Part shown: positions 809 to 17,070 of the stretch, piece after piece
Numbering within the stretch: the first letter of the stretch is position 1
How the letters are laid out: every line of letters starts with the position of its first letter
Origin: a virus
IMG/VR virus record: IMGVR_UViG_3300027649_000009
Coordinates: 1-31,168 of that record
DNA: 31,168 bases
Strand: one strand, 5' to 3'
Notes under the pieces: model-generated
What the model saw: the letters and a program-made list of their open reading frames with translations, nothing else
What the model was told of the DNA's origin: nothing
The model's database searches: none
Translations under genes and position numbers: made by a program

Positions 809-1026
809 TGGAAGACACCAACATAAATGCTAATGTGCAAGTCGCCGTACGGCTATCTTTACTAGAAGATAAAGTAGACCGTTTATTGCTCGTCATCAGC
901 GAACAAGACCAGAGACAACGCCAAATGGAAGTTACGCTGGCGCGTATGAGCGTCTTGACCGGCTTCGTAAGCGCTGGCATCAGCGGCGCTATCGCTTTAT
1001 TGTTCGCTATGTTTAGAAGCAAATAA
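808..1026 (+). CDS. Small membrane protein, putative holin (XhlA-like layout)
   Basis: A 72-residue protein with a charged, heptad-like N-terminal half (VRLSLLEDKVDRLLLVISEQ, about residues 12-31) and one hydrophobic C-terminal segment (about 48-68, ending in AMFRSK). A short coiled coil followed by a single membrane span is the layout of XhlA-type holin accessory proteins. It directly follows the GH25 endolysin with a TGATG stop/start overlap, which supports a lysis role. There are no sequence motifs that prove holin activity. It could also be a membrane anchor that works with another holin, such as the small membrane protein at 12256. Confidence 0.65.
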   Translation: MEDTNINANVQVAVRLSLLEDKVDRLLLVISEQDQRQRQMEVTLARMSVLTGFVSAGISGAIALLFAMFRSK

Positions 1027-1088
1027 AGCCGCCTTCTCCGCGCCAGCGCGCCACCGGCCACCGCGCCAGCCGCGCCAGCGCCACCGGC

Positions 1089-1270
1089 CGCGCCACCGGC
1101 CATTACTCACTATGGAGGTAAACAAACGGCCAAAGGGCAAAGCGCCACCGGCCGCGCTACCATTACGCCTGAAATTCCAGCCCGATTTGGTGCTTGACAT
1201 TTTTACCAGCATGATGATAATTATGGCTATGGGTACGCGGTTTTATCAGATAAAGGAGACCAAGACAATG
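1089..1270 (+). repeat. Duplicated promoter cassette, copy A
   Basis: This stretch closely matches 4182-4356. Both copies carry CCGCGCCACCGGCCA, a CTATGGAG segment that encodes the C-terminus of the gene at 3809 in copy B (MELNKAPKGK), then an identical TTTGGTGCTTGACA promoter block and ATCAGATAAAGGAGACC just before an ATGAGC start. In copy A the MEVNKRPKGK piece is a remnant with no gene in front of it, which suggests that copy B, or a common ancestor of it, was the source. The preceding 1027-1088 holds only GC-rich words such as GCGCCAGC and CCACCGGCC. Confidence 0.85.
1194..1221 (+). promoter_or_regulatory. Sigma70-like promoter (copy A)
   Basis: A perfect -35 box TTGACA at 1194-1199 is followed after 16 bases by GATAAT at 1216-1221 (5 of 6 matches to TATAAT). 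The same promoter occurs unchanged at 4280-4307. It would drive the small-gene cluster starting at 1268. Confidence 0.8.
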
Positions 1271-1483
1271 AGCGCAAGTAAAATGCAATTCAATATCGGA
1301 GACAAGGTTATTTACCGAGGCGGCTTTGGTAGCAGTAGGCCGGTGGCCACTACCATCGTAGATATCGGCGATAAAGATGGTGTTCCAGTATTTGATACCG
1401 CTTCAGGGTCATGGGGATATGCAGACCAATTCAAACTCGGTGGAGATGGCGGCCGAGAAAATAATTGCGACGACACCGCGTAA
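1268..1483 (+). CDS. Small conserved phage protein, possible SH3/KOW-like beta fold
   Basis: A 71-residue protein. I chose the ATG at 1268 because AAAGGAG lies nine bases upstream and a strong promoter precedes it; the frame stays open back to 1112, but that part is promoter and remnant sequence. Residues 9-20 read GDKVIYRGGFGS, followed by short beta-type stretches (TTIVDIGDKDGV, PVFDTASGSWGY). The pattern G-DKV-YRG, a turn, then G-PV-D, W-Y-DQ is one I associate with small phage proteins of unknown function that resemble KOW/SH3 barrels. No catalytic residues are evident. The last codons (DDTA) and stop lie in a border sequence repeated between several genes here. Confidence 0.65.
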   Translation: MSASKMQFNIGDKVIYRGGFGSSRPVATTIVDIGDKDGVPVFDTASGSWGYADQFKLGGDGGRENNCDDTA

Positions 1484-1506
1484 GCGGCCACCTTCAAAGG
1501 AGACCA
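1475..1506 (+). repeat. Gene-border repeat, copy 1
   Basis: A 32-bp unit made of ACCGCGTAAGCGGCC, then ACCTTC, then AAAGGAGACCA. It supplies the last sense codon and TAA stop of the gene before it and the Shine-Dalgarno of the gene after it. The same unit recurs at 1815, 2669, 2895 (variant), 4992 and 5666. Confidence 0.9.
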
Positions 1507-1511
1507 ACCTG

Positions 1512-1823
1512 ATGAACGCAACCAAGCAAATCAAGATTGTAAAAACCAAGAACGCAAAGCACGGTTTCGGAGACCGCAGTTGCGCGGTTTATTATCCTGC
1601 TCAATACGCAGTGATTGTAAACGAAGAAACCGTCGCAACCATTACTTGCGATAGTCAAAAATATTTTGATGTGCCTTGTTGGACTTTGTATGTAGAAGCA
1701 AATGCGGTAGTGGCAGACCATCCAAAACGAGTGACATGGAGCAGCAAGAAGTTTTTGGTAGATTACGCAATGCGCCGCTGGAGCGCCGCCACCACCACCA
1801 CCACCACCACCACCACCGCGTAA
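1512..1823 (+). CDS. Hypothetical protein with poly-Thr tail
   Basis: A 103-residue protein I do not recognise. The ATG at 1512 follows AAAGGAGACC from the border repeat. The N-terminus is basic (TKQIKIVKTKNAKHGFGDRS), the middle looks beta-rich (CAVYYPAQYAVIVNEETVAT, then VPCWTLYVEA), and there is a short helical stretch (KFLVDYAMRRW). It ends in a run of nine or ten threonines coded by a perfect CAC/ACC microsatellite at about 1790-1818, directly adjoining the next border repeat. The tail is probably repeat-derived rather than functional. Length of the tail may vary between related phages. Confidence 0.6.
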   Translation: MNATKQIKIVKTKNAKHGFGDRSCAVYYPAQYAVIVNEETVATITCDSQKYFDVPCWTLYVEANAVVADHPKRVTWSSKKFLVDYAMRRWSAATTTTTTTTTA

Positions 1824-1846
1824 GCGGCCACCTTCAAAGGAGACCA
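1815..1846 (+). repeat. Gene-border repeat, copy 2
   Basis: Identical in layout to the copy at 1475: end codons and TAA of the upstream gene, GCGGCCACCTTC, then AAAGGAGACCA for the next gene. Confidence 0.9.
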
Positions 1847-1851
1847 AGACA

Positions 1852-2097
1852 ATGAGCGCAACACTGAAGGCTACGAAGATAGAGTTTGAGACACGCTACT
1901 ATTTCTTTGCACACGGTAAGGAGCCGCGCGGCCGCGGTACTTGGGCGTTTGAAGGCGCGGCCAATAGCGATGTAAAAGATGTAAGGCTATGGGCATGGGA
2001 TTGCACATATGCTGAAGCGAAGAAGGCGGTGGCCGCCCAAATCAAAGCAGACGCGCGGTTTGCTGGCATGTATGTACGCATGCGCGTTTGTTCCTAA
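1852..2097 (+). CDS. Conserved small protein with HGKEPRGRGTWAF motif
   Basis: An 81-residue protein. Residues about 10-31 read FETRYYFFAHGKEPRG then RGTWAF; the pattern HG-xx-PRG-G-W-F, followed by a Y-A-EAKKAVAA helix and a short basic end, is one I recognise from a widespread family of small phage and bacterial proteins without known function. It starts at an ATG with AAAGGAGACC from the border repeat. The product of the gene at 3465 shares an N-terminal IETRYY stretch and may be distantly related. No enzymatic signature is visible. Confidence 0.65.
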   Translation: MSATLKATKIEFETRYYFFAHGKEPRGRGTWAFEGAANSDVKDVRLWAWDCTYAEAKKAVAAQIKADARFAGMYVRMRVCS

Positions 2098-2122
2098 CAA
2101 TCAGATAAAGGAGACCAAGACG

Positions 2123-2329
2123 ATGAAGGCAAACCGCAAAACAATATGGCTGACGGTCAAAGACTATGAGATAGAGCGCGAGCATGCGACACTTGCTGAT
2201 GCAGTGTTTTGGGCGCAAGGTACACACTGTACAGATGACCGGCCGCGGCGCGAAGGTGAAGCGTACAAGATTGGGCGCACAACAATCGTCAAGCGCGATG
2301 TGTGGACGCGCTGGCAGACAACAAACTAA
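2123..2329 (+). CDS. Hypothetical small protein
   Basis: A 68-residue protein I do not recognise. Start ATG at 2123 is preceded by CAGATAAAGGAGACC, the same ribosome-binding block found before 1268 and 4354. The sequence (KTIWLTVKDYEIEREHATLA, then DAVFWAQGTHC, then YKIGRTTIVKRDVW) alternates beta-type stretches with one short helix, in keeping with a small alpha/beta fold. Charged, without membrane segment or cysteine pair. It is the fourth gene downstream of the copy A promoter, all on the plus strand with 20-30 base gaps. Confidence 0.55.
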   Translation: MKANRKTIWLTVKDYEIEREHATLADAVFWAQGTHCTDDRPRREGEAYKIGRTTIVKRDVWTRWQTTN

Positions 2330-2353
2330 CAATCAGATAAAAGAGACACAATC

Positions 2354-2677
2354 ATGAAAAAGATGGGATTACAAACGGCCAACGCGCTCTATCGCGCAAC
2401 AATAGCATCGGCCGCGGCTTACGCCGCGGCCAAAGAGTTTGATGAAGCGGCTAAAGAGTACTATGCAGAGGCTCTAAAGCTGGCGGCTGGCGCGCCACCG
2501 GCCGCGCCAGCGCACGACAACAGCAAGTTTGGCTCTAAAGGATGCTACGAGTGTGAAATGTGCGGCAAGAAAACGCGACAGACCGGCATGGATAACGAGA
2601 GCGTCAATTTATGCAAAGCTTGTTATCTAGATTGTCAAAACGAAAACGCGATTGCAGATGGCGACGACACCGCGTAA
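2354..2677 (+). CDS. Small zinc-ribbon-like protein (paralogue 1)
   Basis: A 107-residue protein. The N-terminal half is an alanine-rich helix (residues about 8-45, with YAAAKEFDEAAKEYYAEALK) and an Ala/Pro linker built from the GC-rich words common in this genome. The C-terminal half carries CYECEMCGKK and LCKACYLDC, that is two CxxC knuckles about 23 residues apart, which suits a structural zinc ribbon. The C-terminal about 45 residues are closely similar to the next gene product, including the NENAIADGDDTA end, so the two arose by duplication. A nucleic-acid or protein-binding role is likely but not shown. Confidence 0.65.
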   Translation: MKKMGLQTANALYRATIASAAAYAAAKEFDEAAKEYYAEALKLAAGAPPAAPAHDNSKFGSKGCYECEMCGKKTRQTGMDNESVNLCKACYLDCQNENAIADGDDTA

Positions 2678-2700
2678 GCGGCCACCTTCAAAGGAGACCA
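2669..2700 (+). repeat. Gene-border repeat, copy 3
   Basis: Same 32-bp unit as at 1475, lying between the two zinc-ribbon paralogues; it holds the stop of the first and the AAAGGAGACC of the second. Confidence 0.9.
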
Positions 2701-2705
2701 CAACA

Positions 2706-2903
2706 ATGGATGCTACGAGGCAGGCTACGAAAGTGAACGGTACGAGGTACGAGTGTGCAATGTGCGGCAAGAAAGCACCGCGGCCGGTCAGCGCTAATTG
2801 CACAAACGCCAAACGCGTCAAATTATGCAGACATTGCTATCTACATTTTTATGTAGATAGCAAAAACGAAATCGCAATTGCAGATGGCGCCACCACCGCG
2901 TAA
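2706..2903 (+). CDS. Small zinc-ribbon-like protein (paralogue 2)
   Basis: A 65-residue protein consisting almost only of the zinc-ribbon half of its upstream neighbour: RYECAMCGKK, then VKLCRHCYL, then NEIAIADGATTA. The four cysteines of the two CxxC pairs are kept. It lacks the N-terminal alanine-rich helix. Tandem position, conserved C-terminus and flanking border repeats indicate duplication by recombination between borders. No function is known; a small metal-binding adaptor is the plain reading. Confidence 0.65.
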   Translation: MDATRQATKVNGTRYECAMCGKKAPRPVSANCTNAKRVKLCRHCYLHFYVDSKNEIAIADGATTA

Positions 2904-2926
2904 GCGGCCACCACCAACGGAGACCA
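2895..2926 (+). repeat. Gene-border repeat, copy 4 (variant)
   Basis: Starts with ACCGCGTAAGCGGCCACC like the other copies but reads ACCAACGGAGACCA in the second half, so the Shine-Dalgarno is ACGGAGA rather than AAAGGAGA. It follows the second zinc-ribbon gene. Confidence 0.8.
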
Positions 2927-2932
2927 AAGACC

Positions 2933-3397
2933 ATGTTTGACCAAACGACCGACACGATAGAGTTCTTCAAAGTCATCAGTACCAAAGCCAAAAACAAAAT
3001 CGTGCAGGCGGTGGCCGCTACACGACATATCACTGAAGAAGAGGCCTTGGAGCTTGTGACTGAACAAGACAGCATGCCTTTACCAGAGTATCTTACCGGC
3101 GACATGCGCGAGTATGTCGTTGGAATGCTCAAAGGCTGGCGGCGAGGGCCGCGCGCCGTGAGCGCGGTATCTAAACTGGTGTATAGAGCTGACATAGCGA
3201 AGATGACGCCAGATGCTATACGGCTATACAAGAAGAATTATCAACGCGGCTGGCGCGCCAGCGGTGGCGAGATGGGCGCTTTAGATAAAGCCGACATGCG
3301 CAATGAGAGCAACGCATGGTACGACGGCTATTATGATTACGCCAGCCGCCCAAAGTGGCATATGTTGTATTGCCAATGCCACGAAGATTGCCCATAA
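2933..3397 (+). CDS. Conserved phage protein, two-part, function unknown
   Basis: A 154-residue protein. The N-terminal part contains RHITEEEALELVTE and LPEYL, a helical motif I have seen as a separate small phage protein. The C-terminal 60 residues (YQRGWRAS, GALDKADMR, then NAWYDGYYDYAS, then KWHMLYC) match another recurrent phage motif of the type YRRGWRAS...WYDGY-DYA-G-KWH-L-C, of unknown function. The protein may be a fusion of two such modules. It ends CQCHEDCP with a cysteine cluster. Start ATG has a variant GGAGACC upstream. Role unknown; early or accessory gene by position. Confidence 0.65.
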   Translation: MFDQTTDTIEFFKVISTKAKNKIVQAVAATRHITEEEALELVTEQDSMPLPEYLTGDMREYVVGMLKGWRRGPRAVSAVSKLVYRADIAKMTPDAIRLYKKNYQRGWRASGGEMGALDKADMRNESNAWYDGYYDYASRPKWHMLYCQCHEDCP

Positions 3398-3412
3398 CAA
3401 CAACATCAAACC

Positions 3413-3438
3413 GGCCGCGCGCCACCTGACGCGCGGCC
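3413..3438 (+). terminator. 26-bp GC hairpin element, forward copy
   Basis: GGCCGCGCG at 3413-3421 pairs perfectly with CGCGCGGCC at 3430-3438 around an 8-base loop CCACCTGA. It sits between genes, just before the AAAGGAGACC of the next one. There is no following T-run, so it may be a pause site, mRNA-end protector or weak terminator. The element at 6514-6539 is its reverse complement with one mismatch. Confidence 0.6.
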
Positions 3439-3464
3439 ACCACCTTCAAAGGAGACCAAAGATT

Positions 3465-3803
3465 ATGAAGACTGCAAAAAAGAAAATGCCAACGCTACGA
3501 ATAGAAACGCGGTATTACAAAACCACAACTGTGAATGGAGAACTGCAATTTCAAATTCAAGAATACACGACTGCGAAAGTGACGCCTATGCACAAGCGCA
3601 TCCGCGACTTTTATCCTGCAGAGACGCGCATCGGGCAGGTGGTGACTATTCTTGGATGTATGTCAATGTTCGTAATAGACAAGACCATCGCAAGCGACGA
3701 TTGGGGATGGGCGCATGAGCAAGCGGTGAAACAATACCGCGTCAAACGAGCGCTGGCGGTGGCCGCGCGCCATCTTGCGCGCGCCACCACCAAAGGAGCC
3801 TAA
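3465..3803 (+). CDS. Hypothetical protein
   Basis: A 112-residue protein I do not recognise. The ATG at 3465 follows AAAGGAGACC in a gap that also holds the GC hairpin. The N-terminus is very basic (MKTAKKKMPTLRIETRYY), followed by beta-type stretches (NGELQFQIQEYTTAKV) and a hydrophobic patch (VVTILGCMSMFVID). The C-terminal helix is Ala/Arg-rich (RALAVAARHLARATTKGA) and is coded by the GC-rich words. IETRYY near the N-terminus resembles the protein at 1852. The gene is followed after five bases by the next start. Confidence 0.55.
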   Translation: MKTAKKKMPTLRIETRYYKTTTVNGELQFQIQEYTTAKVTPMHKRIRDFYPAETRIGQVVTILGCMSMFVIDKTIASDDWGWAHEQAVKQYRVKRALAVAARHLARATTKGA

Positions 3804-3808
3804 AGATT

Positions 3809-4240
3809 ATGAACGATAAAGAAGCCGCCACCAATCTAGAAGCCGCATGGAGCGCGCGTTGTGACTGTCGCAACAATCACAACTCTGCAAGCGGCCGGTG
3901 CAATACACGCGATGTGACTGACCATACCAGATTTCATGCAGACGGAGTTGCTATATGTGCTGGATGCCGCGCCTTCTGTTTAGGGGAAGGCTTTAGAGGA
4001 TGGTATCTCGCGCCGCGCGCCGACAACAGCGTTGTAGACGATGAAGCGGTGCCAAAAAATTACATTGGCGCGATTGTGTCTCTAAAAGACCATCTAGCAT
4101 ACCGCGCCAAGCTTGGTCTATCGCCAGCCGCGCCAGCCGCGCCAGCCGCGCCAGCTACGCCAGCGCCACCGGCCGCGGTGGCCGCGCCACCGGCCACTAT
4201 GGAGCTAAATAAAGCGCCAAAGGGCAAGCGCCAGCCGTAG
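3809..4240 (+). CDS. Hypothetical cysteine-rich protein with Ala/Pro tail
   Basis: A 143-residue protein. The N-terminal 70 residues contain CDC, a later C in GRCNTRD, and CAGCRAFC, enough cysteines plus nearby histidines for a zinc site, though the spacing does not match a finger I can name. The C-terminal about 40 residues are an Ala/Pro run (PAAPAAPAAPATPAPP and on) coded by tandem GCGCCAGCC-type words, ending MELNKAPKGKRQP. The last 59 bases of the gene belong to duplicated cassette B. Function unknown. Confidence 0.55.
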   Translation: MNDKEAATNLEAAWSARCDCRNNHNSASGRCNTRDVTDHTRFHADGVAICAGCRAFCLGEGFRGWYLAPRADNSVVDDEAVPKNYIGAIVSLKDHLAYRAKLGLSPAAPAAPAAPATPAPPAAVAAPPATMELNKAPKGKRQP

Positions 4241-4356
4241 CGCTACCGTTACGCCTATTATTCTTGTGGCATTTGGTGCTTGACATTTTTACCAGCATGA
4301 TGATAATTATGGCTATGGGTACGAAGTTTTATCAGATAAAGGAGACCAAGACAATG
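4182..4356 (+). repeat. Duplicated promoter cassette, copy B
   Basis: Second copy of the cassette at 1089-1270. It begins inside the 3' end of the gene at 3809, continues through 39 bases of spacer, the promoter at 4280-4307 and the AAAGGAGACC of the gene at 4354. The block from TTTGGTGC through GGCTATGGGTACG is identical in the two copies. Confidence 0.85.
4280..4307 (+). promoter_or_regulatory. Sigma70-like promoter (copy B)
   Basis: TTGACA at 4280-4285, 16-base spacer, GATAAT at 4302-4307, identical to the promoter at 1194-1221. It would drive the second half of the small-gene cluster from 4354. Confidence 0.8.
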
Positions 4357-4587
4357 AGCAAATTTCCAGATACGCGGTCCGTTGTTACGCTGGAAGCCAA
4401 GATAGATATGTTGGCCAGCGTCGTAGAGCTACCGCGCGAATTGCGCCGCGCCATCCAATGGTATCGCAACGGTGATTTACAAGCCGCGCTGGCCATGTTT
4501 GAAGATGAGAATTTTCACGACATAGCTGAGTTGCTTGCAGACAGGATGAAACAACAGAACGGCTGTTGGAATGTTTTTACCATCTAA
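4354..4587 (+). CDS. Hypothetical small helical protein
   Basis: A 77-residue protein, first gene after promoter copy B, with ATAAAGGAGACC before its ATG. It looks wholly helical (VTLEAKIDMLASVVELPREL, then RAIQWYRNGDLQAALAMFED, then DIAELLADRMKQQ). Not recognised. The middle resembles a TPR-like helix pair but one repeat is not enough to claim it. No membrane segment. Ends WNVFTI 28 bases before the next start. Confidence 0.55.
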   Translation: MSKFPDTRSVVTLEAKIDMLASVVELPRELRRAIQWYRNGDLQAALAMFEDENFHDIAELLADRMKQQNGCWNVFTI

Positions 4588-4615
4588 CCGGTTACAAATA
4601 AAGGAGACCACAATC

Positions 4616-4960
4616 ATGAGTTCCATCACACTTACAGAAGCGACCGTCAAAGCCACCGCCTACGCCAGCCGGTTGAAGAAAGAGAGCAAGCGCGTTGTGT
4701 TTGAAGCATGGGCACAACAATGTTTGGGCCGCGTCCATTGCGCTGACATCAAAGAGCAAGTCAAGAGCTTGATGATATACGACTTGATGGTCAGCGTGTA
4801 CGGCAAGCTGGTCACAGAGGCGGTCTTTTTGGGCCATGTACGAGATGCGCGCGTAAGCCGCGCCAGCCGCGCCAGCCGTGACTGTGCCAAGTGGATGTCA
4901 CAACAAGAGAACACAACTCCTATCGGCTACGCTTACGGACGCGGAAGCCGCTTTGAGTAA
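4616..4960 (+). CDS. Hypothetical protein
   Basis: A 114-residue protein I do not recognise, with AAATAAAGGAGACC before the ATG at 4616. Mostly helical: TLTEATVKATAYASRLKKES, then VFEAWAQQCLG, then IKEQVKSLMIYDLMVSVYGK. A short RVSRASRASRD run is coded by GCGCCAGCC words and looks inserted. The end reads GYAYGRGSRFE. No known motif; probably soluble. Confidence 0.5.
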   Translation: MSSITLTEATVKATAYASRLKKESKRVVFEAWAQQCLGRVHCADIKEQVKSLMIYDLMVSVYGKLVTEAVFLGHVRDARVSRASRASRDCAKWMSQQENTTPIGYAYGRGSRFE

Positions 4961-4961
4961 G

Positions 4962-5023
4962 CGGTACGGCTAAAACACCAACCCAATCTACACCGCGTAA
5001 GCGGCCACCTTCAAAGGAGACCA
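4962..5023 (+). repeat. 62-bp gene-end duplicate (truncated copy)
   Basis: These bases match 5636-5697 with two differences (CGGCTAAAAC versus CGGCCCAAAC). At 5636 the segment is the 3' end of a gene (encoding RYGPNTNPIYTA) plus border repeat; here it is only a non-coding remnant with the stop and Shine-Dalgarno kept. It contains border-repeat copy 5 (4992-5023). Confidence 0.9.
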
Positions 5024-5028
5024 ATCTA

Positions 5029-5391
5029 ATGACTAACATGAGCTACTGTGCATTTGAGAATACGGCAAACGATATGAAACAAGCGATGGAGAAGCTTGTG
5101 GATGTGTTGGATGGCCGCGAAGCTGGAATGAGCGAACATGAGCAGGCTGGCCTGCGTCGGATGGTGGATTTGGCGTTGCGTATGGCGGCCGCGGTAGCAG
5201 AAGCGGCGACTGAGAACACGCGGATGACAGCACATCAGTACGAGATGATGAGCGCGCTGGCGTTCAACTACACCGACAGCTACGCGCCTACCATCTTTGG
5301 AGAGACGATAAAGCATGCGGTGGCGCGCGGCGAACTGCTAGAGGCCGAGTATGAGGCAGAGCTGGAAGCCGCGCGGGACTTGGGCGCTTGA
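5029..5391 (+). CDS. Conserved phage protein, MSYC-FENT type
   Basis: A 120-residue protein beginning MTNMSYCAFENTANDMKQAM. The N-terminal pattern MSYCRFENT-xDL is recurrent in small phage proteins of unknown function; here the arginine is replaced by alanine. The rest is helical and acidic (LSEHEQ-like EHEQAGLRRMVDLALRMAAA; ELLEAEYEAELEAARDLGA). A start at 5038 (MSYC) is possible, but the ATG at 5029 is better spaced from AAAGGAGACC in the border repeat. Function unknown. Confidence 0.65.
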   Translation: MTNMSYCAFENTANDMKQAMEKLVDVLDGREAGMSEHEQAGLRRMVDLALRMAAAVAEAATENTRMTAHQYEMMSALAFNYTDSYAPTIFGETIKHAVARGELLEAEYEAELEAARDLGA

Positions 5392-5425
5392 AGACTAAAC
5401 ACTCAGACATAAGGAGACTACGACA

Positions 5426-5674
5426 ATGACAAACGCTATAGACATCGCGCTGGCGCCACCGGCTACCACCACCAAGCGCGCCAAGCGCGCCAGCCGCGCC
5501 AGCCGCGCCACCGGTCCTCGCTACCTTACCGTTCACCACATCATCGCCATTGGCCACCGCGCCAGCCGTATAGACCCGCACAGCGTCGGCAACATCGGCG
5601 ACGCGACACCAGAGGAGACAGCCGCTCACTATGAACGGTACGGCCCAAACACCAACCCAATCTACACCGCGTAA
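5426..5674 (+). CDS. Hypothetical small protein with basic repeat
   Basis: An 82-residue protein. Residues about 10-30 are a low-complexity basic stretch (KRAKRASRASRAT) coded by tandem GCGCCAGCC words. The remainder reads YLTVHHIIAIGHRASR, then NIGDATPEETAAHYERYG, then NPIYTA. Not recognised. The ATG follows ATAAGGAGACT. Its last 39 bases and the border that follows are duplicated at 4962-5023, in front of the preceding gene. Confidence 0.5.
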   Translation: MTNAIDIALAPPATTTKRAKRASRASRATGPRYLTVHHIIAIGHRASRIDPHSVGNIGDATPEETAAHYERYGPNTNPIYTA

Positions 5675-5697
5675 GCGGCCACCTTCAAAGGAGACCA
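5636..5697 (+). repeat. 62-bp gene-end duplicate (coding copy)
   Basis: The 3' end of the gene at 5426 plus border-repeat copy 6 (5666-5697). It matches 4962-5023 at an offset of 674 bases with two mismatches. Confidence 0.9.
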
Positions 5698-5701
5698 GAC
5701 A

Positions 5702-6070
5702 ATGACAACGACAAATAAAGCTACGATGTTCCATCAAGCGACAAAAGACAGTATGTCCTATGTGATGGATGAGATTGTGGTAAGCGTAGGGCCGTATCAG
5801 TACATAGACGATGACGCGGCCACCGGCGCATATGTGGCCACCGGCTTGCGCATCGCTACTGTCCACATGCAATTGGTGCTTGACGCCGCGGCCGTTGAAG
5901 AGTTACGGACAGCGCTTTACATGGCCATCACAAAGCAAGAAACACGCGTTGTGACGAGTACGATGCAAGCGCCGCATCGTGTGCATCTAGAGCCAAAGCT
6001 TATAGACACTTGTAATTTGGCGCCATCCATCCGGTATGCCAATCTCGCTGGCGTGGAGATAGAGCGATGA
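5702..6070 (+). CDS. Hypothetical protein
   Basis: A 122-residue protein I do not recognise. Start ATG after AAAGGAGACC of the border repeat. A beta-type region (DEIVVSVGPYQYIDDDAATG, then GLRIATVHMQLVLDAAAVEE) leads into a helix (LRTALYMAITKQ) and a loop-rich C-terminal part (LEPKLIDTCNLAPSIRYANL). No catalytic or metal-binding motif is visible. It overlaps the next gene by ATGA, so the two are likely made together. Confidence 0.55.
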   Translation: MTTTNKATMFHQATKDSMSYVMDEIVVSVGPYQYIDDDAATGAYVATGLRIATVHMQLVLDAAAVEELRTALYMAITKQETRVVTSTMQAPHRVHLEPKLIDTCNLAPSIRYANLAGVEIER

Positions 6071-6495
6071 CGCGCGCATCTGTGGCGCTTGCGCCGTTGT
6101 TTGAGCGGCTATGGTCAGACGCGTGTCACGCTGGCGCGGTGGCCGGTGGCCGCGCGGCCGTAGCGCCAATGATTGTTACACAGCGCGCCAGCGTTCTTGA
6201 TGACAGCTCACCGATTGTGCAAGAGTATGTCGTAGCCGGTGGCGTGTGCGGCTTCGCTTGGCTTCAGTTCAAAGGCACAACACCGTTTGGCCGATGGGCC
6301 AAGGAGACTAAATTGGCCAGCGCCGCTTATGGAGGCGGCTTGCAGATAAGCTGTAGAGAGTTTGGCCAGTCTATGCAGCGTAAGGAGGCTTGGTGCTACG
6401 GCGTAGCCAAGTCATTGCAGTCATTTGGAGCGTATAGCTTTGGAGGCAAGCAATACGACTTTACAGATGTCTACTCGTGCAGTCGGATGGACTGA
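6067..6495 (+). CDS. Conserved phage protein ending SRMD
   Basis: A 142-residue protein. After a GC-word-coded Ala/Gly stretch the sequence shows VVAGGVCGFAWLQFKG, FGRWAKETKLASAAYGGGLQ, REFGQSMQRKEAWCYG and a terminal SRMD. The combination G-CGFAW-x-K, YGGG-x-I, GQS-xRKEA and a C-terminal SRxD is one I recognise from a family found in many phages, of unknown function. The start overlaps the previous stop. The conserved residues clustered in GQSMQRKEA suggest a binding site but none has been assigned here. Confidence 0.7.
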   Translation: MTRASVALAPLFERLWSDACHAGAVAGGRAAVAPMIVTQRASVLDDSSPIVQEYVVAGGVCGFAWLQFKGTTPFGRWAKETKLASAAYGGGLQISCREFGQSMQRKEAWCYGVAKSLQSFGAYSFGGKQYDFTDVYSCSRMD

Positions 6496-6513
6496 GCGCC
6501 AGCGAAGTATGTC

Positions 6514-6539
6514 GGCCGCGCGTCAGGTAGCGCGCGGCC
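6514..6539 (+). terminator. 26-bp GC hairpin element, inverted copy
   Basis: GGCCGCGC at 6514-6521 pairs with GCGCGGCC at 6532-6539. The 26 bases are the reverse complement of 3413-3438 except for one position. Like the first copy it lies just after a gene and just before AAAGGAGACC of the next one. No T-run follows. Confidence 0.6.
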
Positions 6540-6565
6540 ACCACCACCAAAGGAGACCAAAGGCT

Positions 6566-6910
6566 ATGTCTAACATGTACACGAAAAATTACAATGGAGC
6601 AGATTTGGGAGATGACTTCAAGCGCTTTTACAATAAAGTCAAGCGCGTGATTGTTGCAGAGCTACGCGATGCTAATTGCACAAACTTGCAGATGTCGCGG
6701 CAGTTTTACTACTTTACCGGTTTCTTCACAGCGGCTGATGGACAAGTGTATTACTTTAGCTGTTCTGATGTGAGATGGTTTGTGTTTACGCATTTGATGG
6801 TGCGCGCCGCTAAACACTACGGCGACTATGAAGGCTCTATAAATCATTATGTGCGCTTGCACTCTCTTGCACAATGGACGCTGGCGCGCGCCAGCCAAGT
6901 AGAGGCGTAA
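6566..6910 (+). CDS. Conserved phage protein, function unknown
   Basis: A 114-residue protein with AAAGGAGACC before the ATG. The sequence follows a pattern I know from many phages: a basic helix (DDFKRFYNKVKRVIVAELRD), CTNLQMSRQFYYFTGFF, a G-QVYYFS turn, SDVRW, then a helix MVRAAKHYGDYEGSINHYV. The core FYYFTGFF...G-x-YYFS-SDVR and a D-x-G-x-N-Y end are the recognisable elements. No function is known. Aromatic-rich, soluble, no membrane span. Confidence 0.65.
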   Translation: MSNMYTKNYNGADLGDDFKRFYNKVKRVIVAELRDANCTNLQMSRQFYYFTGFFTAADGQVYYFSCSDVRWFVFTHLMVRAAKHYGDYEGSINHYVRLHSLAQWTLARASQVEA

Positions 6911-6914
6911 GACC

Positions 6915-7145
6915 ATGAAGATAAAGGGTCAAGAATACAACGGACATCCTTCTAAAGGGCATTGGAATGTGGCTTTATGGATAAACAACGATGAGTGTAC
7001 ATATAGCGTGGCAATGACCGCGCTGAAGGAGCGCGGCCGCAAATCAGCGGCGCGGTGGCTCATCATGCACATGTTACCGGCGCGTACGCCAGATGGCTAC
7101 CAATACACATATGCGCGCGTTTACGCCGCTCTAGACCAAGAATAA
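6915..7145 (+). CDS. Small conserved protein with WNVALWINNDE motif
   Basis: A 76-residue protein. The motif WNVALWINNDECTY at residues about 17-30 is typical of a small phage/bacterial family (I recall it as DUF7249-like) with N/T-W-NVALWI-NDE-LY. The rest is a basic helix (LKERGRKSAARWLIMHML) and YQYTYARVYAALDQE. Only four bases separate it from the previous stop and no clear Shine-Dalgarno is visible besides AGAGG at 6901-6905, so coupling is likely. Function unknown. Confidence 0.65.
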   Translation: MKIKGQEYNGHPSKGHWNVALWINNDECTYSVAMTALKERGRKSAARWLIMHMLPARTPDGYQYTYARVYAALDQE

Positions 7146-7155
7146 GGAGACCAGC

Positions 7156-7383
7156 ATGTTTACGAAACAACACTACGAAGTGGTGGCAAGCGTCTTGCGC
7201 GATGTACGCGACATGGCGCGCCGCCAAGAAATAGCAACTGCGTTTGCGCGGCGCTTCGCCATAGACAATGAGCGCTTCAATAAAGAGCGCTTCTTGCGCG
7301 CCGCCAGCGCCAAAGATGCAGACACGACCGGCGCGGTGGCCGGTGGCGCGGCTGGCGCCACAGGAGGCCAAGATGCAAGCTGA
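7156..7383 (+). CDS. Small conserved protein with FTKQHYE start
   Basis: A 75-residue protein. MFTKQHYEVVASVLRD, FARRFAIDNERFNKERFLRA is a helix-rich pattern that I recognise from many small phage proteins (FT-KHYE-IA...FA-DN-RFD--RFL-A). Function unknown. The C-terminal 20 residues (TTGAVAGGAAGATGG) are low complexity from GC-rich words. TAAGGAGACC precedes the ATG. It overlaps the next gene by 11 bases. Confidence 0.65.
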   Translation: MFTKQHYEVVASVLRDVRDMARRQEIATAFARRFAIDNERFNKERFLRAASAKDADTTGAVAGGAAGATGGQDAS

Positions 7384-12255: not shown

Positions 12256-12438
12256 ATGAAGATGAAACAGTTGTTGGCCAGCAGAAAGTTTTGGTCTATG
12301 GTGATTGCTGTAGCCGGTATTCTGACGGCATGGTACAACGCGCAAATCATCGCCACAGACGCGATAAACGCTCTTGTCGCTACGATGGCCGCGTACAGCA
12401 TTGCCACCGGTATAGACGACAATGGCTCTAACGCATAG
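12256..12438 (+). CDS. Small membrane protein, holin-like
   Basis: A 60-residue protein with AAGGAGAAG before the ATG. A basic start (MKMKQLLASRKFW) precedes two hydrophobic stretches (SMVIAVAGILTAWY, then DAINALVATMAAYSIATGI), and the end is short and polar. The start with R-KFW-M-V and two membrane-like segments is common in small phage holins. It lies near the 3D-domain protein rather than the GH25 gene. Its 3' end overlaps the ParB-like gene by 17 bases, so it leads the modification operon. It may instead have a membrane function tied to that operon. Confidence 0.6.
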   Translation: MKMKQLLASRKFWSMVIAVAGILTAWYNAQIIATDAINALVATMAAYSIATGIDDNGSNA

Positions 12439-13150
12439 CATCAGTTGGGAGAGCAAGCGCGTTTGCATTGCAGACCTGAAGCCTTGGTCTGACAATCCGC
12501 GTTACTCCACAAAAGCGCAAGCAAAGCGCTTGTTAGATTCTTGGGCCGACCTCGGACAATTCCAAACAATCGCCATCGGGCCTGATTTTGAAGTCTACGA
12601 TGGCCACCAAAGACTGAGCGCTCTATTGACGATGCACGATGGCGCGTTTGAAGTAGATGTGCGCCAGTCGCATCGCGCGCTCACAAACACTGAGCGTAAG
12701 CGCTTGTCTATTGTTGCTCATACCGGCTCTGTAGGCGCTTGGGATTGGGAGAAGCTTGTGGCTTGGGATAGTACAGAGTTGGGCGCATGGGGAATGGACA
12801 GCGAAGCGCTTGTGCAATGGAACACAGACGCTACCGTGTTACAACAAATCGTGCGACAACAGGTGGCCTCTGGTAACGGTTTAGAAGGCATAGAGATAAA
12901 CGAACAGTTGGGATTTGCGCCTGATGTTGCGGCTGATACAGAGCATAGGATTGCTTTAGAAGCACAAGCTCCTGGATTGTATGCGCGCACAATCGTTCTT
13001 ATCTATCCCGCATATATGTACGGCGCTATCGTGTCAGCGCTGGAAGCCGGTTGTCGTGATGGCAAACACGACACATATAGCGATTTTGCCGGTACGATGT
13101 TGTTAGGAGACGAGTATGCAAGAGCTAAGAGTAAAGTCCCAACAGATTGA
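12422..13150 (+). CDS. ParB/Srx-fold protein of the DNA base-modification type
   Basis: A 242-residue protein. Residues 13-70 form a ParB N-terminal-like domain: VCIADLKPWSDNPR, then QFQTIAIGPDFEVYDGHQRL with the diagnostic DGHQR box (60-64), then a helix. The remainder (LTNTERKRLSIVAHTGSVG, WDWEKLVAWD, ELGAWGMD) resembles the W-D--KL tail of ParB proteins linked to phage DNA methylases and modification genes. ParB-fold proteins have been reported in predicted base-modification operons beside TET/JBP dioxygenases; roles proposed are DNA binding, nicking or ATPase-like activity. It overlaps both neighbours (17 and 35 bases), which argues for joint expression with the dioxygenase. Confidence 0.8.
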   Translation: MALTHSISWESKRVCIADLKPWSDNPRYSTKAQAKRLLDSWADLGQFQTIAIGPDFEVYDGHQRLSALLTMHDGAFEVDVRQSHRALTNTERKRLSIVAHTGSVGAWDWEKLVAWDSTELGAWGMDSEALVQWNTDATVLQQIVRQQVASGNGLEGIEINEQLGFAPDVAADTEHRIALEAQAPGLYARTIVLIYPAYMYGAIVSALEAGCRDGKHDTYSDFAGTMLLGDEYARAKSKVPTD

Positions 13151-14039
13151 CCCGACAGCGTACCGCCAGCGTTATGCGTCTGAAGGTGACGCGCCTAAGC
13201 AAATAAATTATCCGTGTCGCATCTACATAGATGACAATGTGCTTCCAAGCGCTGTCTACTGTGAGTTAGACCACAAACTGCCAGCGCTTGTAGAAGCTTG
13301 TAAATCTCTAAACTACGGCGTCACACATCGCACACGCGGCATGCGCACGCGTTCTACAACATTTGGTTATATGCCGCGCAGTCCAACATATCAGCAAGAC
13401 TCATGTCGCGTTGTTCAGATGGCGCATGACTATCCACAACAACACGCCGTTCTATGCGAGAGCGCCAAACTGTTGTCGGCCTTATATGAGCGTCACAATC
13501 CAGAAGTGTTTGTAGAGCATGTGGCGCAAACGAAGATTGTTGTAGACAACTACAAAATGGGAGACACGCCGTTCACAAGCGGTATCGTAAATAAAGACAA
13601 TCAGTTGCCATACCACAACGACACGGGCAATTTCGCCGGTGTCTGGTCTAACATGTTTACCTTCAAAGGAGACATCATCGGCGGCAATCTGACCTGTCCG
13701 CAATTGGGAGTGACCTTTATGCTACGAGACCATTCCGTGTTGATGTTTGACGGACAATCCATCATGCACGGTGTCACGCCATTTATCAAGATAGCACCAG
13801 AAGCATACCGATATACCGTTGTTTACTACAGTTTACAACGCATGTGGAAGTGCCTACCGCCAGCCGAGGAGATAAAGCGCGCAGATAAAAGCGTAAGAGA
13901 GCTTACGATGTTGCGTGTAGAGCCTGACGCGGATGGTGGAGGCAAACTGCGCGCCAAAAGCACACGCGAAGCTCTGCAGGCGGTGGCCGCGCGCGCGCGC
14001 CAGCCTCGCAAGAGCAAGAGCAAGAGCGATGCACTATAA
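13116..14039 (+). CDS. TET/JBP-family 2-oxoglutarate/Fe(II) DNA dioxygenase
   Basis: A 307-residue enzyme expected to hydroxylate the 5-methyl group of a pyrimidine in DNA (5mC to 5hmC, or T to 5hmU). It has TRSTTFGYMPRSP (78-90), FTSGIVNKDNQLPYHND (153-169) with the iron ligands H167 and D169, GVWSNMFTFK, IIGGNLTCPQ, then MFDGQSIMHGVTP with distal ligand H218, and YRYTVVYYSL with R232 placed to bind 2-oxoglutarate. FTSGIVNK and MFDGQ-x-HGVTP are distinctive of phage TET/JBP proteins rather than general dioxygenases. The C-terminal 30 residues are Lys/Arg/Ser-rich, which may help DNA binding. TTAGGAGAC precedes the ATG. The substrate base cannot be told from sequence alone. Confidence 0.85.
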   Translation: MQELRVKSQQIDPTAYRQRYASEGDAPKQINYPCRIYIDDNVLPSAVYCELDHKLPALVEACKSLNYGVTHRTRGMRTRSTTFGYMPRSPTYQQDSCRVVQMAHDYPQQHAVLCESAKLLSALYERHNPEVFVEHVAQTKIVVDNYKMGDTPFTSGIVNKDNQLPYHNDTGNFAGVWSNMFTFKGDIIGGNLTCPQLGVTFMLRDHSVLMFDGQSIMHGVTPFIKIAPEAYRYTVVYYSLQRMWKCLPPAEEIKRADKSVRELTMLRVEPDADGGGKLRAKSTREALQAVAARARQPRKSKSKSDAL

Positions 14040-14757
14040 AATCGCGGTCGTCTCGCACCGGCGGCCGCACATATTGGCGCGCCTGACATACAAGATGTTG
14101 AAAGAATCAACAGTGGCGATGGAAGATGTCACATTGTTTCTGTCAGACGAGCAAGACGCGCGCGAATACGCCATCGTACCGTTGCCGCAAGTGATTACCG
14201 CCAGCGCCAATGTGCGCGATAAATTCAATTTCGTGCATAGCTTTTATCCTAAAGGTACGCGTGTGCTGGTGCTGGAAGATGACATAACACTGATAGACAA
14301 AAGCAACGCGGTCGTGCGCGACATAAACGCAATGGCAGAGATTGGATTTGCCAGCATTGGAGAGTACGGCATTTGGGGTATCGCGCCGCATGCCAACACC
14401 TTCTACTTTAGCGGCAAAGTAACGCACACACTAAAGTTGGTGGTGGCGCATTGCTTTGGATATGTGGCCACAAACGATCCAGCGCTGGCGGTCACACAAC
14501 TGAGTAAAACGGATTACGAGCGCACACTCTTATACTTTCAAAGATACGGCTGTGTAACGCGGCTGGACATGTACGGCGTCAAGACCAAAAGTTACACACA
14601 AGAAGGCGGCATGCAATCGGATTACACTTTAGAAGCGCGACATATCGTAGAGCAAACGGCATGCGACTATTTAGTAAAGCGCTTTGACGGACTTGTGGCG
14701 GCCAACAAGACTAAACAATCGTTGCATCCGGAGCTGCGGCTGGCGCGTGTGAGCTAA
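14029..14757 (+). CDS. TET-associated-type glycosyltransferase (TAGT)
   Basis: A 242-residue protein starting at the ATG at 14029, overlapping the dioxygenase stop by 11 bases. It has a GT-A-like layout: KIAVVSHRRPHILARLTYKM (4-23), VTLFLSDEQDAREY (34-47), RVLVLEDDITLID (78-90) with an EDD motif in the DxD position, then FASIGEYGIWGIAP and AHCFGYVATND. Proteins of this type were described next to phage TET/JBP genes and are thought to add a sugar to the hydroxymethyl base in DNA. Direct overlap with the dioxygenase strongly supports this pairing. The donor sugar is unknown; the kinase and nucleotidyltransferase at 15.6-16.7 kb could make it. Confidence 0.75.
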   Translation: MHYKIAVVSHRRPHILARLTYKMLKESTVAMEDVTLFLSDEQDAREYAIVPLPQVITASANVRDKFNFVHSFYPKGTRVLVLEDDITLIDKSNAVVRDINAMAEIGFASIGEYGIWGIAPHANTFYFSGKVTHTLKLVVAHCFGYVATNDPALAVTQLSKTDYERTLLYFQRYGCVTRLDMYGVKTKSYTQEGGMQSDYTLEARHIVEQTACDYLVKRFDGLVAANKTKQSLHPELRLARVS

Positions 14758-15005
14758 AGGCGCGGCCGGTGGCGCTGGCGCGGCCGGTGACCGAGTATTT
14801 GATAAATCATCGCAATTTATCAAGATTTATCAAGTATCAGTAAATACGCGCGGCCACCGGTAAATACGCGCAATTTATCAGAATTTATCAGGTATCAGTA
14901 AATACGCGCGCCGCGGTGGCCGGTGGCCGAGTATTTGATAAATCATCGCAATTTATCAAGATTTATCAGGTATTTGGTAAATACTCGCACCGCGCCACCG
15001 GCCTC

Positions 15006-15026
15006 CGAGTATTTGGTAAATACTCG
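15006..15026. repeat. 21-bp perfect palindrome, copy 1
   Basis: CGAGTATTT, centre GGT, then AAATACTCG. Identical copies lie at 15163, 15241 and 15281. Confidence 0.9.
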
Positions 15027-15162
15027 GAATTTATCAGAATTTATCAGGTATTTGGTAAATACTCGGCCGGTGGCCTAAATGTTCAAAATTTATCAGGTAT
15101 TCAGTAAATCATCAAGATTTATCAGGTATTTGGTAAATACTTGCGCTGGCGCGGCTGGCCTC

Positions 15163-15183
15163 CGAGTATTTGGTAAATACTCG
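15163..15183. repeat. 21-bp perfect palindrome, copy 2
   Basis: Same 9-base arms and GGT centre as the copy at 15006, preceded as there by GGCCTC. Confidence 0.9.
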
Positions 15184-15240
15184 TAATTTATCAAGATTTA
15201 TCAGGTATTTAGTAAATACGCGGCCGGTGGTGGTGGCCTC

Positions 15241-15261
15241 CGAGTATTTGGTAAATACTCG
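15241..15261. repeat. 21-bp perfect palindrome, copy 3
   Basis: Same sequence as the copy at 15006, preceded by GTGGCCTC and followed by CGCTGGCGC. Confidence 0.9.
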
Positions 15262-15280
15262 CGCTGGCGCCACCGGCCTC

Positions 15281-15301
15281 CGAGTATTTGGTAAATACTC
15301 G
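15281..15301. repeat. 21-bp perfect palindrome, copy 4
   Basis: Same sequence as the copy at 15006, only 19 bp after copy 3 and without TTTATCA boxes between them. Confidence 0.9.
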
Positions 15302-15340
15302 CGCTGGCGCGGCCGGTGGCCGAGTAGTTGATAAATACGC

Positions 15341-15572
15341 GACCGGTGGTGGTGGCCGGTGGCGCGGCTGGCACGGCCGGTGTGCGCTGGTGTGCGCCGG
15401 TGGCGCGGCTGGCGGCATAGCTGACCGTGCTGACCGTGCGCTGGCCTACGGCCGCTGGCGCGCGGCTGGCATCACTACTGTGCGGCTGGCGGCATAGCTG
15501 ACCGTGCGGCTGGCATCACTACTGTGCGGCTGGCGCGCCACCGCGGCCGTAAAGCCGACAAGCTGGCCAAAG
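15341..15572. repeat. GC-rich direct repeats, non-coding
   Basis: Built from GGTGGCCGG and GCGGCTGGC words. GCGGCTGGCATCACTACTG with its TGCGGCTGGC extension occurs at 15462-15490 and again at 15506-15534 (period 44), and GGCGGCATAGCTGACCGTGC occurs at 15411 and 15488. No gene is visible; it is the 3' flank of the minus-strand kinase. Confidence 0.75.
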
Positions 15573-16199
15573 CTACGCGTATAGAGAGGCCAGCGCTTCT
15601 ACACGGTCTAAATACATCGCTTTATATTTACACACGCGCAAACCCTCTGAAGCGGCCAACAGCCACACAATAGAGCCAAACTCCTCTGCTATCGTATGGG
15701 CAGAACGCATGTCGTCTTCGTAGACCGCGTAACTCCAAGCCGCCTTGCCAGCGTCTGTTAGATAACTGCCAAAGACCTGCTTGTGGTTTGGGTCAATCAA
15801 ATAAACATTGTCGCAATCATAACAAGTGATGCAGTTGGTCGTGGATAAATCGCCGTGAAAGAAAGTGGCCGCATGCTCGGCCTCCGACAACTGTTCTTTG
15901 ATGGCATGCGCCGGTAAATTGCTTATGTATGTCTCGTATGACGCGTTGTTGTGGCTGTTTAGAGCTTCAAAGCGCCTGATGACTGCGATGATGGCGTTTA
16001 CTTTTGGAGTACGGCCGTACACGCGCTCTAGCAGGATAAAGTCGTCACATACGCCCAAAACGCGCGGTGTGTAGAAGTCTTTGGCGCGCGCCAGCTCGTA
16101 CCAATGCGCTTCTGACCGGCCGGTGGCGCAATGCTTGTAAACGACCGTGTCAAACAGATACAAGTCGTTGCCGGTGAAGGCGCTATGTAAATAACTCAC
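15573..16199 (-). CDS. APH/choline-kinase-like small-molecule (sugar) kinase
   Basis: A 208-residue minimal kinase. The N-lobe has VVYKH with K22 as candidate ATP-binding lysine and E30 or E35 as its partner; FILLERVYG (54-62) is the hinge. The catalytic loop FFHGDLSTTNCI (113-124) has H115, D117 and N122, and VYLIDPN (132-138) carries the metal-binding D136. YLTDAGKAAWS follows, as in capsule-locus kinases paired with nucleotidyltransferases. A sugar or sugar-alcohol substrate is inferred from the pair. It starts at GTG (16199), overlapping the nucleotidyltransferase stop as GTGA, so the two are coupled. It could also be an antibiotic-type phosphotransferase, but the pairing argues against that. 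Confidence 0.75.
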   Translation of the reverse strand: MSYLHSAFTGNDLYLFDTVVYKHCATGRSEAHWYELARAKDFYTPRVLGVCDDFILLERVYGRTPKVNAIIAVIRRFEALNSHNNASYETYISNLPAHAIKEQLSEAEHAATFFHGDLSTTNCITCYDCDNVYLIDPNHKQVFGSYLTDAGKAAWSYAVYEDDMRSAHTIAEEFGSIVWLLAASEGLRVCKYKAMYLDRVEALASLYA

Positions 16200-16684
16200 G
16201 AGGCTTCAGACGCGGTGGCCGCTTTGTATTCCTCTGGTGTGCCTAAATGGATTGTACGCATCGTAATCGTTTGATGGTCACGCATACCACCGGCTATGTC
16301 GTCTACCTTCATATATCGCAATAAAGCGTCTATGGAACGCACATAGTATAAACCGGCATTGCGGCCTTTGTAAACGAATAAAGCGTCCTTATCCGTGCAA
16401 GCAAAACGAAACGATGGCACATAGATGTCCGCGTCTACGATGAGAACGCTACGCATGCCGGTAAGGTAACGGAGTGTGTCCTTGCGACAGCGTGTCGGCG
16501 CGATGCGTATAGACTGTGGTACATTCAACGCGTGGTGGCTCAGTACGATGGCGTCAGGGAAGCGCTCTAACAGGTGTGCAAGGATGGTTTTACCGCGAAA
16601 AGGAAGCAAACACTTGGCTATGTTGGCCACCGGCCGCATGCGCTCTCCATCTCCATTGGCCGTTATGACTGTAAAATATTCCAT
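16196..16684 (-). CDS. Sugar-phosphate nucleotidyltransferase (NTP-transferase fold)
   Basis: A 162-residue protein. The N-terminus FTVITANGDGERMRPVANIA (4-23) and KCLLPFRGKTILAHLLERF (24-42) match the signature G-G-R--P----KCLLP--GKTIL of enzymes that join NTP and sugar-1-phosphate into NDP-sugar. VLIVDADIYV (80-89) has the D84-x-D86 metal pair. It is shorter than usual (about 230-300 residues), so it is a minimal catalytic domain. I took the ATG at 16684, since the signature begins there; a GTG at 16714 adds ten residues. No Shine-Dalgarno is visible for either. It leads the minus-strand pair with the kinase. Confidence 0.75.
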   Translation of the reverse strand: MEYFTVITANGDGERMRPVANIAKCLLPFRGKTILAHLLERFPDAIVLSHHALNVPQSIRIAPTRCRKDTLRYLTGMRSVLIVDADIYVPSFRFACTDKDALFVYKGRNAGLYYVRSIDALLRYMKVDDIAGGMRDHQTITMRTIHLGTPEEYKAATASEAS

Positions 16685-16702
16685 CACATCATCAGTTATG
16701 GG

Positions 16703-16733
16703 ATTATAGGACACCGATGGCGCGGCCGCTAAA
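16703..16733 (-). promoter_or_regulatory. Possible promoter of the kinase/nucleotidyltransferase pair
   Basis: On the minus strand a perfect TATAAT (16703-16708) lies 18 bases before the ATG at 16684. A weak -35 TTTAGC (16728-16733) is 19 bases further up, inside terS. A start from here would give a leader of only about 12 bases without a Shine-Dalgarno. Confidence 0.4.
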
Positions 16734-17070
16734 GCTCAAAAGCACTGAAGTAGTAGATGCGCTCAAACGCGCGCGCGGCTTGCGTACCATCGCGGCTGAC
16801 TTGCTGGCGATAAATGTCAAGACAATAGATGCGTACATACAGCGTTTGCCTGATGCAATGGAGATTGTAGAACATTGGCGTAAAGCGCGCAAGGACTTGG
16901 CAGAGTTCAAACTAGACGAGGCCATCATGCGCGGAGAGAGTTGGGCGATTGTGTTCACACTAAAGAACGCGCGCGACAGAGAGTATAACGATAGAGTAGA
17001 GATAAACGCGCGCATCGGTGATCTAGAGCCATACGAGTACGGTCGTGCAGCTTCCTCGCTTGCGCCGTGA
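16717..17070 (+). CDS. Terminase small subunit-like DNA-binding protein
   Basis: A 117-residue protein immediately before terL. The N-terminal part contains a helix-turn-helix-type segment: VVDALKRARGLRTIAADLLA, then INVKTIDAYIQRLPDA, the usual layout of small terminase subunits that bind the packaging site. The second half (ARKDLAEFKLDEAI, GESWAIVFTLKNARDREYND) is the typical D-AE--L---I--GE-WAI-F-LK---R pattern. It overlaps terL by 26 bases. AGGA lies five bases before its ATG. The region between it and the divergent nucleotidyltransferase is only 32 bases. Confidence 0.75.
   Translation: MARPLKLKSTEVVDALKRARGLRTIAADLLAINVKTIDAYIQRLPDAMEIVEHWRKARKDLAEFKLDEAIMRGESWAIVFTLKNARDREYNDRVEINARIGDLEPYEYGRAASSLAP

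Follow-up and report, generated by a model that had tools for sequence, protein, structure and literature searches.

The virus record IMGVR_UViG_3300027649_000009 of IMG/VR, which was analysed over its whole length of 31,168 bases and is called the window here, carries between 12.4 and 16.7 kb a candidate DNA-glycosylation locus of five genes. Genes for a ParB-like protein, a TET/JBP dioxygenase and a TET-associated glycosyltransferase (TAGT) lie on the plus strand, and genes for a kinase and a nucleotidyltransferase (NTase) lie on the minus strand. The window also encodes terminase, portal, major head and tape-measure proteins. The locus and its flank contain the following features:

12422..13150, plus strand: ParB-like protein, whose gene opens the operon (PHROG ParB-like, 6.5e-7)
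13116..14039, plus strand: TET/JBP 2-oxoglutarate/Fe(II) dioxygenase (Pfam Tet_JBP and catalytic residues)
14029..14757, plus strand: TAGT, a glycosyltransferase of GT-A type with an EDD motif (PHROG 25200, Pfam, tree)
14761..15550, no strand: repeat array separating the two convergent groups of genes (copies of a 21-bp near-palindrome)
15573..16199, minus strand: small-molecule kinase of APH/LicA fold, without a HAD domain (homologues, motifs, fold of a homologue)
16196..16714, minus strand: short NTase of sugar-1-phosphate type, the inner ATG at 16684 being the likelier start (AlphaFold2, Foldseek, residues)
16717..17070, plus strand: candidate terminase small subunit, flanking and divergent from the NTase gene (homologues directly upstream of the terminase large subunit in relatives)

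The ParB and TET genes, the TET and TAGT genes, and the NTase and kinase genes overlap, in the last case by 4 bp. The repeat array of about 0.8 kb contains four exact copies of the 21-bp near-palindrome CGAGTATTTGGTAAATACTCG and, when both strands are counted, 14 matches to it at up to 3 mismatches, where none is expected. The coordinates of the open reading frames (ORFs) and the repeats agree with the first-pass annotation, which had described three overlapping plus-strand genes faced across a repeat array by a kinase and an NTase gene that overlap each other.

Among the five proteins, the window TET displayed a match over the cut-off to Pfam Tet_JBP (PF12851; 54.2 bits, cut-off 34.9, 1.3e-14). 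The TET/JBP residues H167, D169, H218 and R232 are all present at exactly the positions first claimed for them and are invariant across the aligned relatives, and the activity predicted for the enzyme is hydroxylation of a pyrimidine methyl group in DNA. The window TAGT scored just below the cut-off of Pfam TAGT (PF20691; 24.2 bits, cut-off 27.5) and matched PHROG 25200 at 1.1e-26, and its homologues from the phage contigs L090 and L094 and from phage S-CBWM1 exceed the Pfam cut-off. Alignment and tree indicate that it is homologous to TAGTs, it contains the EDD acidic metal motif, and its gene, which overlaps that for TET, is best started at the ATG at 14029 (MHYKIAVV, as in relatives) and not with the long ORF from 13933. 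TAGTs are a known DNA-modifying family (PMC13216743, PMC13390438), and the window protein is predicted, again from sequence, to attach a sugar to a hydroxymethyl base. The ParB-like protein was recognised by PHROG alone, its counterpart in contig L002 reaches ParB_N over the cut-off, and most relatives for which enough sequence exists also carry ParB with the cluster; it is a probable DNA-targeting or accessory factor. Profile searches with which the proposed identities were to be checked gave a divided outcome: Tet_JBP was matched over its cut-off, and TAGT, kinase, NTase and ParB were below cut-off, weak or found with PHROG only.

For the kinase and the NTase, only weak profile matches were obtained (TCAD9, APH and Bud32 for the former; NTP_transf_3, MurU and GlmU for the latter), the kinase falling below the Pfam APH cut-off. 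Sequence matches in the Protein Data Bank (PDB) were all marginal, and one of them, of the kinase to Csy1, was judged spurious. Despite the weak profiles, both identities are upheld because of fold predictions, which had been named beforehand as a check and turned out positive. An AlphaFold2 model of the window NTase, built with an alignment of relatives, has a pLDDT (predicted local distance difference test) score of 90.4, and its Foldseek neighbours in the PDB are MurU, LicC, HddC and RmlA with E values of 1e-7 to 1e-6. The protein has an N-terminal GxGxRM...K loop and a DxD metal site, and G21, G23, R25, K34, D94 and D96 are invariant across 17 sequences. In the case of the kinase, a homologue from L090 that shares about 39% identity with it was modelled with a pLDDT of 92.3 and resembles LicA, APH(3') and methylthioribose kinase. 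The window kinase itself has K22, E30, HGD115-117, N122 and D136 intact and is 38-43% identical to kinases that adjoin TET/TAGT in other phages. Many of these relatives are fusions of a HAD phosphatase and a kinase; the window protein starts after the HAD domain and so is the counterpart of their kinase half.

The gene pair recurs beside TET and TAGT genes. L002, an unrelated phage contig obtained in a TAGT search of IMG/VR, contains genes for ParB, TET, TAGT, NTase and a HAD-kinase fusion in a codirectional, mostly overlapping cluster just before the terminase. Its NTase is 43% identical to that of the window and its HAD-kinase 41% identical over the kinase part. As NTase and kinase show 42-43% identity to a pair that adjoins TET/TAGT in another phage, a chance match is not plausible. 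Inverting the NTase-kinase segment of L002 in place would give the layout of the window. A kinase-first scan yielded 22 viral contigs, 16 with a TAGT in the stretch read, 5 with no TET or TAGT and 1 that starts inside the gene, and when a kinase alignment was used for scanning, most phages found had the order ParB-NTase-HADkinase-TAGT-TET.

A TAGT-first scan was followed by annotation with hidden Markov models (HMMs) and by a maximum-likelihood tree of dereplicated TAGT lineages, in which the window TAGT lies inside a clade of 16 lineages (support 100/99). NTase genes are found beside TET/TAGT in all 16 and a complete kinase in 15, the kinase frame of L114 being incomplete, so that this lineage was scored as having NTase-HAD and a truncated kinase; the pair was called by HMM in 13 lineages and by weaker profile matches plus inspection in L114, L115 and L116. 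As the TAGT-first scan returned all 15 clade lineages other than the window itself, the association is not an artefact of kinase-based searching. The lineages are related, however, and do not amount to independent trials. Outside the clade and within the sequence read, the pair occurs only in Synechococcus phage S-CBWM1; 8 other tree lineages whose flanks are long enough lack it, a PIG-L deacetylase takes its place in 3 more, and 11 are cut too short for a judgement. Within the clade the genes occur in the orders ParB-TET-TAGT-NTase-HADkinase and ParB-NTase-HADkinase-TAGT-TET, in most cases with the stop codon of one gene overlapping the start codon of the next, and their architectures comprise separate NTase and HAD-kinase genes, a kinase with an NTase-HAD fusion (L116) and the NTase plus HAD-less kinase of the window. 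A single NTase-HAD-kinase protein of 595-621 amino acids is encoded in L117, L118, L119, L132 and L137. The survey of co-occurrence with TAGT suggested along with the first-pass annotation was thus strongly positive, and since the gene set recurs in many unrelated viruses, the sugar-making genes, as judged from sequence, probably belong to the DNA-modification system.

Detection of the pair depended on the query. Scans of viral contigs with the single sequences of the window NTase or the window kinase gave no match, L002 alignments being needed. When 50,697 phage records were searched by tblastn with both proteins, and with those of L090 as well, no match was obtained, which means that this collection contains no tblastn-recognisable form of the pair. 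A profile scan of genome contigs with the HAD-kinase alignment likewise found none, and scanning genome contigs with the fused NTase-HAD-kinase protein gave 24, with best segments 25-44% identical.

The HAD phosphatase, present in most relatives, is absent from the window, where a regular-expression scan detected no HAD motif anywhere. The similarity of this domain to the EcbF-BcbF capsule phosphatase family is weak in the HAD-kinase fusions and clear in the three-part proteins (2e-17), where it still falls below the curated cut-off. In the GDP-heptose pathway a kinase, a phosphatase and an NTase act successively on one substrate, and by analogy the union of these three activities in one protein would imply successive steps on one substrate.

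It is likely, in our judgement, that the locus specifies a phage-encoded DNA-glycosylation pathway with its own donor-sugar branch. Gene content, folds, intact catalytic residues and conserved linkage were computed; the order of reactions, the sugar, the base and the purpose are inferred. The kinase would add a phosphate to C1 of a sugar or sugar phosphate, the HAD phosphatase of most relatives would then strip a second phosphate, and the NTase would convert the sugar-1-phosphate to a nucleoside diphosphate (NDP) sugar. Because the HAD step is absent from the window, this phage must either start from another substrate or use another phosphatase, and its pathway may begin with a free sugar or rely on the host. 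TET would hydroxylate a pyrimidine methyl group in finished phage DNA, most likely turning thymine into 5-hydroxymethyluracil, TAGT would move the sugar onto the hydroxylated base, ParB would probably direct or assist the enzymes on DNA, and the modified DNA would be shielded from host nucleases. Co-occurrence and folds support the joint pathway of the first-pass annotation, in which kinase and NTase make the NDP-sugar and dioxygenase and TAGT act together; its four steps are retained, and what that scheme omitted is the HAD phosphatase of the relatives as a third donor step.

Concerning the base, neither a C5 cytosine methyltransferase nor a hydroxymethylase of thymidylate-synthase type was detected in any of 14 records, namely the window and 13 relatives and comparison records, of which S-CBWM1, Acadian and Bolt007 were searched whole and most are fragments. 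Because no C5-methyltransferase was found there, sequence evidence makes thymine more likely than 5-methylcytosine as the hydroxylated base, and the window record may itself be incomplete, in which case the absence is not proof. The authors who described a similar ParB-TET cluster in Tonitrus also read it as thymine modification (PMC11955845). A variant that we regard as rather unlikely is that TET acts on 5-methylcytosine at host-methylated or otherwise methylated sites, leading to glycosylated hydroxymethylcytosine. Phages in which a C5-methyltransferase, TET and glycosyltransferases together make glycosylated cytosine are described, with reference to Burke et al. 2021, in one report (PMC12730594), whereas the methyltransferase is missing from the records above and the Tonitrus reading favours thymine. 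Work by Burke et al. in 2021 is said to describe phage TETs that act on 5-methylcytosine. The more specific proposal that the phage and its clade make a non-host sugar through a nucleotide-sugar pathway of their own and put it on thymine in finished DNA, which would give bacterial viruses an equivalent of base J with a sugar other than glucose, is put forward tentatively, with somewhat less than even confidence.

Several observations weigh against a dedicated donor-sugar branch. Taken by themselves the kinase and NTase profiles are weak, the fold of the window kinase is modelled through the L090 homologue and not from the protein itself, the HAD domain is absent and the pair lies on the opposite strand. 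The window NTase also lacks a hairpin found in most relatives. In sugar NTases this hairpin helps to bind the sugar phosphate. In addition, the closest folds include LicA and LicC, which activate choline rather than a sugar. The short, hairpin-less NTase and the LicA-like and LicC-like folds of the kinase homologue and the NTase would suit an enzyme pair that makes an activated non-sugar group of CDP-choline or CDP-ethanolamine type for DNA or surface decoration. We consider this quite improbable, as the constant partner is a GT-A glycosyltransferase and choline activation has no use for a HAD phosphatase such as the one that relatives carry fused to their kinase. Moreover, in the fused relatives the NTase portion is most like NTases for sugar-1-phosphates (GlmU/RmlA/HddC type), and the same three activities exist in RB69, whose DNA carries arabinose (PMC6024577).

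The inverted orientation and the intervening repeat array could also mean that a separate cassette for host-surface or virion glycans has come to lie beside the DNA-modification operon by chance. Consistent with this, five viral lineages (L085, L086, L097, L098 and L100, on contigs of up to 175 kb) have NTase and HAD-kinase without a TET or TAGT detectable by a Pfam search of incomplete sensitivity, which also overlooked the known TAGT of L093. In at least one of them, L097, a glycosyltransferase of N-acetylglucosamine (GlcNAc) type adjoins the pair (2.8e-72), and distant homologues in bacteria are located in what seem to be polysaccharide loci. The pair is thus not exclusive to DNA modification, which is a further point against the donor-branch proposal and suggests that the common denominator of NTase and HAD-kinase is glycosylation rather than DNA as such. 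For the window, an unconnected cassette is nevertheless improbable, because the association with one TAGT clade is complete across 16 lineages with differing orders and fusions and because the clusters mostly have overlapping stop and start codons.

If a phage-encoded pathway with its own donor-sugar branch is the correct reading, a large and mostly uncultivated branch of TET-TAGT phages makes a dedicated donor independent of the host sugar pool, and these genes point to unknown DNA bases whose chemistry could be predicted from them. The fused NTase-HAD-kinase proteins are compact enzymes for assay.

The closest relatives of the window by terminase (L003, L012 and L014) have neither TET/TAGT nor the kinase/NTase pair, and in the same place upstream of the terminase an apparent DNA methyltransferase (L003) and ParB-like genes, recognised by eye, are found, which suggests that this locus is an exchangeable DNA-modification slot. 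Other TET/TAGT phages were noted in passing. Genes annotated as SNF2 DNA repair proteins in S-CBWM1 (L110, 3729-5165) and in Caulobacter phage Cr30 (L111, 734-2062) encode TET/JBP dioxygenases (Pfam, 4.3e-18 and 8.4e-21, respectively). In Cr30, TET, an amino acid:DNA transferase (ADDT, 1.3e-52), TAGT and an inositol-1-phosphate synthase are clustered at 734-7207, possibly for a mixed amino-acid and sugar or inositol DNA modification. In L121, L136 and L156, ParB, a second glycosyltransferase (PF04488 at 3.2e-15 in L121, with similar sequence in the other two), TAGT and TET lie in a row, possibly placing a disaccharide on DNA, and in L144 an FkbM-type methyltransferase (3.3e-12) directly after TAGT, at 3026-3664, makes O-methylation of the added sugar possible.

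The folds of the window kinase and NTase are shared with the pairs AmgK-MurU and LicA-LicC. These follow the same two-step logic of a kinase and then an NTase, and they differ in substrates and genomic context and have no close sequence similarity to the window pair. In bacterial loci of Roseivirga, Prochlorococcus and a Rickettsiaceae metagenome-assembled genome, HAD, NTase and kinase are together or fused among apparent glycan genes (neighbours read by eye, not by profile), so that these distant homologues of the three-part protein look like members of surface-polysaccharide synthesis loci; in contrast to the window, they are cellular, no TET or TAGT was seen in them, and their similarity is to the fused relatives only. 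Mycobacteriophages (Acadian and relatives) and Arthrobacter phages share with the window the order ParB, TET, TAGT, with homologous TET and TAGT, but have no kinase or NTase and instead a PIG-L-type deacetylase after TAGT (L108, Acadian, 2438-3025; L109 and L112), which suggests that in actinobacteriophages GlcNAc from a host donor is transferred and then deacetylated.

The first-pass annotation knew of no description of a phage-supplied donor branch beside such a cluster; in general form, a phage-encoded donor branch has precedents. RB69 arabinosylates its DNA and phage synthesis of the donor sugar has been proposed for it (PMC6024577), and TH1_063 of phage Thanatos makes UDP-xylose in vitro (PMC12838424). 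As in the window, a phage NTase and an APH-type kinase serve DNA glycosylation in the RB69 module (ORF051c, 052c, 053c and 055c) and in Thanatos (TH1_060/TH1_063): RB69 ORF052c resembles a kinase, ORF053c an NTase, and ORF055c has a SIS domain (arabinose-5-phosphate isomerase). RB69 additionally has an EcbF-type HAD phosphatase, as do the relatives of the window; its ORF051c (L113, 5709-6095), annotated as phosphoheptose isomerase, matches the EcbF-BcbF family at 3.8e-13. In RB69 and Thanatos, unlike in the window, the base is pre-modified at the nucleotide level without TET, the glycosyltransferase is another one and a sugar isomerase is present, whereas no SIS domain was detected among the window proteins scanned, which represent part of its ORFs. 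Sequence similarity to the window genes is very low, and profile comparison was too weak to claim close kinship with the RB69 kinase and NTase. What appears to be undescribed is the linkage of a donor branch to a ParB-TET-TAGT system, for which the literature searched held no description, although Iyer 2013 and Burke 2021 may hold one. Another counterpart is S-CBWM1, in which gp8 to gp12 encode TET, TAGT, HAD phosphatase, NTase and APH-type kinase in a row and the kinase is homologous by profile to the window-family kinase (E 6.7e-13). It differs from the window in having no ParB in the stretch read, a separate HAD gene, another NTase subfamily and a TAGT outside the clade. As an isolated phage that has the whole TET-TAGT-HAD-NTase-kinase set, it would, if the proposed pathway is correct, allow a direct test of it.

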